In this document: one piece after another, positions 48,971 to 50,712 of the stretch | How the letters are laid out: each line of letters begins with the position of its first letter | Numbering within the stretch: position 1 is the first letter of the stretch | The notes under the pieces: model-generated | Database searches by the model: none | The model's input: the letters and a program-made list of their open reading frames with translations, nothing else | Told to the model about the DNA's origin: nothing | Position numbers and translations under genes: made by a program | NCBI RefSeq assembly: GCF_008271365.1 | Contig: NZ_CP043430.1 | Span: 2,666,001 to 2,730,000, forward strand | Length of the DNA: 64,000 bases | Source of the DNA: Microbacterium sp. 1S1 | Lineage (GTDB): Bacteria; Actinomycetota; Actinomycetes; Actinomycetales; Microbacteriaceae | Direction of reading: 5' to 3'

Positions 48971-50011
48971 TCACTCCACGACCCTCCGCCGAATCCGCGG
49001 ACCGAGACGGGTGAGGATCTCCTCCCCGACCGTGTCGATCCGCTCGGCGAGGGTCGTTGCCGTCTCCTCCCCGTGCACGCCCGGTCCGAAGACGGTGACC
49101 TCGTCGCCGACGGCCATCCCCGGCCACCCGGCGACCGTCGTCGTCGCCAGCTCGACCGCGTTGGCCACGCGGGGGCCTGCGGGAGTACCCACCGGCATCC
49201 CGGCGAGCGTCGAGGGAAGCCCGTCAAGGCTGCCCACGGCCACGACCGCGCAGTCGCCGTCGAGCCGGACGACGGGGGCGCCGAGGCTCGCGGCCGGGCG
49301 GACGCCGTCGAGTTCGGGACCGTCCGCCGAACGGATGCCGTAGCAGAAGGCGCCGATCCGCGACACCGTGCCACGCAGTTCCGGCCGCCACCACGACGCG
49401 GCCGAGGCGGTCAGGTGCAGGGCCGCGGGCACGGCTCCGGACGCGCCGGTCTCCCGCACGGCGTCGAGGAACACCGCTTGGGCATCGTCGTCCTCGGCGT
49501 CGCTCGCTTCGGCGATGTGACTCCAGATCCCGACGAGCGCGAGCGAGCCGCTCCGCTCGGCCGCCCTGGCCTCGGCCACCGCGGCCGGCCAGTCCTCCGG
49601 GCGGACGCCGTTGCGGTGCAGCCCCGTGTCGATCTTGAGATGCACGCGCGCACGCACGCCGAGCACTCCGGCGCGCGCCACGACGCGTCGGAGGTACTCG
49701 ACCGTCCCGATCCCGAGCTCGATGTCCTGCAGGAGGGCCTCATCGATCTCCTCGTCCGTCGAGGTCGCCCAGGCGAACACGGACACGGCGCCGCCCGCGA
49801 TACGCCGAACGTCGAGGCCGCCGCGCACGTCATAACTGCCGAACGCGGTCACCCCTGCCTCGAGGGCGGTCTCCACCGCCCAGCGGAGTCCGTGGCCGTA
49901 CGCGTCGTCCTTGAGGACGAGCATCAGCGCGGAGTCGCCCAGCCGGTCCCGCACCGCCGCGATGTTGGCGCGGAAAACGGAGCTGTCCAGACGGAGTTCC
50001 GGTCGCATCAT
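48971..50011 (-). CDS. Alanine-racemase-like subunit A: intact PLP barrel, catalytic Tyr segment missing
   Basis: A 346-residue fold-type III PLP protein. By eye it keeps every barrel residue of classical Alr: PLP Lys34 in LVLKDDAYGHG, Arg133 in DTGLHRNG, His165 in WSHIAEASD, Ser203 in HLTASAASW, Arg218 in VSRIGAFCYGI. The C-terminal domain is degenerate. The segment carrying the catalytic Tyr (KVSYGxTY in Alr) is deleted, GYADG has become GSLDG, and the CMD substrate motif has become AVELA. Alone it should lack the second acid/base. The ATG overlaps the stop of the next racemase-like gene (ATGATG), so the two are made together. Confidence 0.9.
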   Translation of the reverse strand: MMRPELRLDSSVFRANIAAVRDRLGDSALMLVLKDDAYGHGLRWAVETALEAGVTAFGSYDVRGGLDVRRIAGGAVSVFAWATSTDEEIDEALLQDIELGIGTVEYLRRVVARAGVLGVRARVHLKIDTGLHRNGVRPEDWPAAVAEARAAERSGSLALVGIWSHIAEASDAEDDDAQAVFLDAVRETGASGAVPAALHLTASAASWWRPELRGTVSRIGAFCYGIRSADGPELDGVRPAASLGAPVVRLDGDCAVVAVGSLDGLPSTLAGMPVGTPAGPRVANAVELATTTVAGWPGMAVGDEVTVFGPGVHGEETATTLAERIDTVGEEILTRLGPRIRRRVVE

Positions 50012-50712
50012 GCCTCCCAGCCGCGTACGGCGTGCGCTCCGGGAACGGCGACGAGCTCCGCGGGTGTCATCCCGGTGACCTCGGCCCAGCGGGCGATCGA
50101 GTCCGAGGCGGGTCCGGTCCCGCCGAAGAAGGTCACGGTATCCCCCACCTCCGCGGCGAGTCCCTGGAGGTCGATCACGCAGACGTCCATCGCGACACGC
50201 CCGACGATCGGACGCAGTGCGCCATGGATCTCGACGTCGGCATGATTGCCGAGCGCGCGGACCACGCCCTGAGCGTACCCGCCGGTCACAAGCGCGACCA
50301 TCGTGTCCTCCGCGGCCCGGAAGGTGTAGCCGTAGGAGACGGCCTCCCCCGCCCGCAACCGTTTGGTGGACATCACGCGACCGACCAGACGCATGACCGC
50401 TGGCGTCGCCGAGGCTCCCGCGGCGGTCGGCAGCCCATAGAGGAGACCGGGGTCGAGGTCGGGGGTGCCGGCGGTCGTCGCGTCGATGCCTTCGAGGCGC
50501 ATCGCCTCCACTTGCCCCGTGGAGTCCACGAGGACCCTCTCTGCGCCGGCGGCGGTGACAGCGTGGGCGACGGCGAGCAGTCCGTGACCCCACGCATCGC
50601 GCCGCAGATCCGCGAGACGGCCGCCCGCCCTGATCGCCGCGGATGCGCCGGCGGCGAGGGCCGAACGCGAGATCATCGCCCGCGGAAGCGCACTCGAACT
50701 CGTGTCACACAC
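50008..50712 (-). CDS. Alanine-racemase-like subunit B: intact Tyr-bearing beta domain, PLP Lys lost
   Basis: About 234 residues. The N-terminal barrel is cut to about 90 residues; the PLP motif reads LRRDAWGHG, so Lys is replaced by Arg37 and Tyr by Trp41. Most of the barrel (strands 3-8) is missing. The C-terminal beta domain is complete and conserved: catalytic Tyr127 in AVSYGYTF, Tyr146 in GGYAQG and the substrate-binding Met175-Asp176 in VGRVAMDVCVIDL. It thus carries exactly the residues that subunit A lacks. GTG 50712 is chosen because TAGGCT lies 7 bases upstream; ATG 50733 or 50676 are alternatives. Confidence 0.88.
   Translation of the reverse strand: MCDTSSSALPRAMISRSALAAGASAAIRAGGRLADLRRDAWGHGLLAVAHAVTAAGAERVLVDSTGQVEAMRLEGIDATTAGTPDLDPGLLYGLPTAAGASATPAVMRLVGRVMSTKRLRAGEAVSYGYTFRAAEDTMVALVTGGYAQGVVRALGNHADVEIHGALRPIVGRVAMDVCVIDLQGLAAEVGDTVTFFGGTGPASDSIARWAEVTGMTPAELVAVPGAHAVRGWEA

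Follow-up and report, generated by a model that had tools for sequence, protein, structure and literature searches.

Two overlapping genes on the minus strand of a 64,000-nucleotide stretch of Microbacterium sp. 1S1 DNA (contig NZ_CP043430.1, positions 2,666,001 to 2,730,000; hereafter the window) very probably encode the partner subunits of a pyridoxal phosphate (PLP)-dependent racemase, an obligate heterodimer of the alanine racemase (Alr) fold, as judged from sequence comparison. Gene A carries the half of the active site that holds the PLP lysine and gene B the half that holds the catalytic tyrosine. The first-pass annotation had proposed an obligate heterodimeric alanine racemase. Complementary halves, co-occurrence of the genes, purifying selection and natural one-chain fusions strongly support the heterodimer, whereas alanine as its substrate is disfavoured by an intact alr gene in the same genome and by an acidic residue (Asp or Glu) at the substrate gate in all 37 readable pairs.

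The coordinates first annotated are correct; both open reading frames lie on the minus strand and overlap by 4 nt (ATGA, 50008..50011). Gene B comes first (50712-50008; 234 residues from a GTG start, some relatives being annotated at 222 residues, consistent with an ATG at 50676), and gene A follows downstream (50011-48971; 346 residues). Both products can be aligned to solved alanine racemases, and the nearest homologues that carry a species name are Microbacterium proteins. A contains a complete Ala_racemase_N barrel (profile positions 2-219 of 220, 139.4 bits), and lacks the first 31 positions of the C-terminal domain, since its Ala_racemase_C match begins at position 32 (32-126 of 127). 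B consists of a barrel remnant, in which the Pfam search gave no Ala_racemase_N match at E ≤ 1, and a complete Ala_racemase_C domain (1-119 of 127, 106.7 bits).

The residues divide between the two chains in the same way, and the alignment bears out the assignments made at first pass. Equivalences are given in Geobacillus Alr numbering, and the functions of the site residues are taken from the available excerpts of PMC3485190 and PMC4517790. A keeps Lys34 (codon 49910..49912; equivalent to the PLP lysine, Lys39), Tyr38, Arg133, His165, Ser203 and Arg218, and has lost the segment that bears Tyr265. B has Arg37 (codon 50602..50604) and Trp41 in place of Lys39 and Tyr43, and retains Tyr127 within an SYG motif (codon 50332..50334; the catalytic Tyr265'), Tyr146 (Tyr284) and Met175-Asp176 (codons 50185..50190; Met312'-Asp313'). 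A and B jointly hold every residue of one composite Alr active site.

In the proposed arrangement, A would contribute the barrel, which carries the PLP lysine together with the ligands of PLP and substrate, whilst B would contribute the C-terminal domain, which crosses the dimer interface with both tyrosines (the catalytic one and the second) and the Arg, Met and Asp residues. Each dimer would have one active site; the second would be inactive, since the tyrosine strand is gone from A and the greater part of the barrel from B. Physical pairing of A with B and racemase activity are inferred from the complementary residues, co-occurrence, operon overlap, selection and fusions. AlphaFold2 gave a low-confidence model for B alone (pLDDT 69.2, pTM 0.51), which counts against this arrangement. 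A fusion racemase was modelled with a pTM of 0.89. Foldseek rows of 601 columns with an rmsd of about 17 were not used as evidence.

The division of residues is conserved well beyond the window. A total of 150 genomes of the same family, Microbacteriaceae, were searched with A and with B and the loci were then read, giving at least 38 adjacent B-A pairs in 38 genomes and 24 genus codes (counted by hand), with complementary halves in all 38; three further pairs (G038, G067 and G104) lie beyond these. The locus L051, with two full-length racemases, was left out of the counts, and the A of L057, truncated by a contig end, was left out of all A counts except Lys/Tyr43. The Lys motif is present in the A of all 38 pairs, and Arg136, His166, Ser204 and Arg219 in all 37 readable ones, from each of which Tyr265 is missing. 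All 38 B proteins have Tyr265 and Met312, with Tyr (34) or Phe (4) at position 284 and Asp (33) or Asn (5) at position 313. Starts of B for the residue counts were set by script, and the key motif test was repeated on whole stop-to-stop frames; neither the Lys motif nor the TGxxR motif (Arg136) was found in any of these 38 B frames. In B the partner-site residues Tyr265, Arg290, Arg309 and Met312 show little or no variation, whereas in A they drift or are missing; the own-site residues are fixed in A and drifting or missing in B. The genes overlap in 33 of the 38 pairs, by exactly 4 nt in 28. Across the order, 103 of 198 genomes matched at E ≤ 1e-90, the remaining 95 having no match at that cut-off and not being judged; every non-family row listed is at least 1098 nt and full length, versus 1017-1044 nt for the A genes of pairs. 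The genome sets overlap (the same coordinates recur, for example in G147/G427 and G033/G424), and counts from different sets are not summed. Two copies of the pair per genome occur in Microbacterium sufflavum (G400) and in G350, whose copies look identical and may be an assembly duplication. Microbacterium-type racemase genes also appear in records titled Stenotrophomonas maltophilia, Aneurinibacillus and Streptomyces (L099, P0024 and P0220), assemblies that are probably contaminated or misnamed.

Other architectures occur among relatives. In Gulosibacter and Pseudoclavibacter both halves are carried on one chain, in the order A-B and with a gate Tyr, and these proteins are annotated as alanine racemase (P0241-P0281). 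The fusion is the sole Alr found in three of the four genomes checked, and a D-amino-acid transaminase, a possible alternative source of D-alanine, scored over the cut-off in none of seven genomes, six of which gave weaker matches. G077 and G140 have a split Alr with a gate Tyr. In Marisediminicola senii and G080, B is nearly full length with a dead barrel, in which Ser replaces Lys among other changes. Some genomes have a full-length racemase with an Asp or Glu gate alongside the canonical one, which mostly has a Tyr gate; this was seen at nine loci and, among named genomes, in Herbiconiux, Planctomonas, Clavibacter, Subtercola and three others. Asn replaces Asp313 in full-length Tyr- or Trp-gate Alr proteins beside an acid-gate paralogue (L215, L216, L220, and partial L055, L065), and position 313 is that of the D322N variant named in titles of M. 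tuberculosis Alr structures.

In a tree built from 91 barrel rows (omitting the L189 rows, near copies of L218), the distinction between split or fused and full-length forms requires six changes, a count that does not separate gain from loss. The fusions form one clade (98/90) and the G077/G140 A proteins another (100/99), both among Tyr-gate Alr, and the acid-gate split A proteins require at least three changes on well-supported branches. A single origin of all split forms is nevertheless unlikely. An evenly balanced proposal is that Microbacteriaceae have a family of heterodimeric racemases with more than one origin from single-chain ancestors, through the loss of complementary half-sites; its acid-gate members would make D-ornithine or D-diaminobutyrate for group-B murein, and its Tyr-gate split or fused members would be the alanine racemase of the cell.

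These observations also bear on the idea that A acts as a Tyr-less homodimer catalysing another PLP reaction, such as aldol cleavage or decarboxylation, with B as a regulator or stabiliser. The PLP ligands are kept in A, and aldolase activity is reported to arise in Alr variants altered at Tyr265. However, B keeps precisely the partner-site residues (Tyr265, Tyr284, Arg290, Arg309 and Met312), which a regulator would not need, and the fusions retain both halves, so that this alternative is quite improbable.

The first-pass annotation had raised the occurrence of A or B alone in many genomes as a point against the heterodimer; the sampled genomes do not show such a pattern. Among 247 Microbacterium genomes, A and B occur together in 206, neither occurs in 39, and B apparently occurs alone in two. 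The best E-values for A are bimodal, falling either at 1e-55 or better or in the range that canonical Alr gives, 1e-24 to 1e-39, and the cut-off for presence was set by the authors between these modes. The two apparent B-only genomes (G239 and G299, 68 and 72% complete) are attributable to poor assembly: A lies in broken frames next to B in G239, and B stops at a contig edge in G299. B is weak in two positive genomes, G238 and G316.

It is very improbable that the partner of B is the cell's canonical Alr instead of A. The C-terminal domain of B would fit any Alr barrel; B is nevertheless missing where A is missing, despite a canonical Alr being there, the A and B genes overlap in most pairs, and the fusions join B to A.

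Both genes are under purifying selection. Comparisons with ten relatives give dN/dS values between 0.13 and 0.25 for A and between 0.10 and 0.26 for B, at dS values of 0.49-1.11, the upper end of which places the distant comparisons near saturation. Neither gene has a stop codon in any of the ten relatives, and for each gene the 120 closest homologues listed all retain the residues of its half, including Lys34 of A and Tyr127 of B. The first-pass annotation had offered two decayed or repurposed homologues without joint catalysis as its alternative, and each gene alone does lack essential residues. The low dN/dS, intact frames and retained catalytic residues argue against this, as do co-occurrence, the recurrent architecture changes on the tree and the fusions that serve as sole Alr, leaving decay scarcely any probability.

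The substrate is a separate matter, and here a residue that had gone unremarked at first pass is informative. Glu330 of A (codon 49022..49024) occupies the position of Tyr354, the inner gate, which is bonded to the PLP phosphate and whose change is tied to wider or different specificity in the available excerpts of PMC3485190 and PMC4517790. The excerpts of PMC3485190 give Thr or Ala at this position in the lysine racemase Lyr and the broad-specificity racemase Bar (Bar/Bsr), and Asn in VanT. The gate is Asp in 20 and Glu in 17 of the readable pairs, and Glu in all 120 listed closest homologues of A. The search for a full-length alr proposed at first pass found an intact gene, L001, in the genome of the window (368 residues, with the Lys, SY and MDQ motifs); it counts against alanine activity and not against the heterodimer. 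The substrate is probably not alanine, given the intact alr and the replacement of the gate Tyr by Asp or Glu. The same genome encodes a second full-length Alr-like protein, with a His gate (L002; G000:C1:1188439-1189080 and on), lying within a long frame that follows an open reading frame for what may be a D,D-carboxypeptidase-like protein, an arrangement resembling that of VanT; His-gate relatives are also found in Agromyces sp. Root81 and Okibacterium.

That the same heterodimer is an alanine racemase backing up the intact alr is unlikely. In favour of this, the family is that of alanine racemases, and the fused or split forms of Gulosibacter and of G077/G140 must supply D-alanine if there is no other source. 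Those forms, however, have a gate Tyr, which none of the 37 acid-gate pairs has, and canonical alr is present in the window genome and in all 37 pair-less Microbacterium genomes searched (of 39), which would make an alanine role of the pair redundant; the gate was Tyr in all 30 canonical Alr proteins read from pair-less genomes.

At about even odds, the substrate is instead a basic diamino acid (ornithine, diaminobutyrate (DAB) or lysine), whose D form would be used to build the interpeptide bridge in B2-type murein, since an acid at the gate would suit a second amino group. D-ornithine or DAB is present in the group-B murein of many Microbacteriaceae, according to the part of the literature available. 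Sister species with opposite diamino acids are named in PMC10757982: L-lysine in M. imperiale and M. arborescens versus D-ornithine in M. radiodurans, M. enclense versus M. testaceum, and M. gubbeenense versus the other members of its cluster. A partial test was made by comparing peptidoglycan types across 37 named genomes, of which 18 have the split pair, seven a full-length acid-gate racemase and 12 neither; 16 of the 18 split pairs were checked by residue, those of M. commune and M. testaceum being assigned by adjacency only. Consistent with a diamino role, the pair is present in M. oxydans, M. sufflavum and M. hydrocarbonoxydans (D-ornithine, cluster V) and in M. testaceum (D-ornithine, cluster IV), and is lacking in Compostimonas (L-DAB, B1). 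M. flavum, of cluster II, which we take to be the L-lysine cluster, also lacks the pair. M. thalli lacks it too and was counted neither for nor against the role. The pair gate is Glu in the D-ornithine Microbacterium species and Asp in Leifsonia, a suggestive tracking of Glu and Asp with ornithine and DAB that is broken by Lacisediminihabitans (Glu, DAB).

Several observations weigh against the diamino role. Lacisediminihabitans has the pair, though its murein is reported as B1-alpha with DAB. No acid-gate racemase was found in Agromyces sp. Root81, which we take to have B2-gamma murein. The same holds for Cryobacterium, which has DAB and B2-gamma murein according to the available part of PMC7033078. 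L-ornithine is reported for one Microbacterium in the excerpt of PMC10978784. The peptidoglycan type is known for a minority of the sampled genomes, and an acid so close to the PLP phosphate is unusual. The fusions and the G077/G140 forms have a gate Tyr; they show that such an architecture can serve for alanine, and do not reveal the substrate of the acid-gate pair.

Alanine racemase is a target of antibiotics and, in textbook accounts, a homodimer. Searches of the open-licence literature, most of it seen as listings, gave no description of a split or heterodimeric alanine racemase, nor of an ornithine or diaminobutyrate racemase in Microbacteriaceae. The series from single chain through dead-barrel duplicate and truncated pair to fusion would show an obligate heterodimer evolving by the sharing out of one active site. 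If the acid-gate pair does make D-diamino acids, it would name an enzyme for a step in group-B peptidoglycan for which those searches listed none, and would offer a genome marker for the chemotaxonomic distinction between D-ornithine and L-lysine in Microbacterium.

Upstream of B lies a divergent ATP-grasp gene (PF14397; 50797-51813, plus strand), with 98% identity in near Microbacterium relatives. It was considered as a pathway partner and is present in 208 of the 247 Microbacterium genomes, but out of step with the pair: neither G106 nor G159, which have the pair, gives a match, and G157, which lacks it, matches at 2.3e-156. The gene was dropped as a partner because it is not co-inherited with the pair.

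Among known systems, the pair shares its fold, PLP ligands and the two-base, cross-interface layout of Lys and Tyr with homodimeric Alr (TIGR00492; structures from Geobacillus, M. tuberculosis and Streptomyces). It differs in having Lys and Tyr in separate genes, one proposed site instead of two, and Asp or Glu in place of Tyr354; A and B score 103.6 and 94.3 bits against TIGR00492, below its curated cut-off of 168. The serine racemase VanT is a membrane-bound single chain, unlike the pair, and A falls far below the VanT cut-offs (97.7 bits versus 460 for NF033131, and 36.9 versus 900 for NF033132). VanT is an Alr-fold paralogue with an altered gate, and Lyr and Bar/Bsr likewise have the Alr fold, carry another residue in place of the gate Tyr and act on larger or basic substrates, as the excerpts of PMC3485190 describe. 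Lyr and Bar/Bsr are, however, homodimers, with Thr or Ala at the gate rather than an acid. The Gulosibacter and Pseudoclavibacter fusions contain the same two complementary halves as the pair, although on one chain in the order A-B and with a Tyr gate, and fall among canonical Alr on the barrel tree, apart from the acid-gate pairs.
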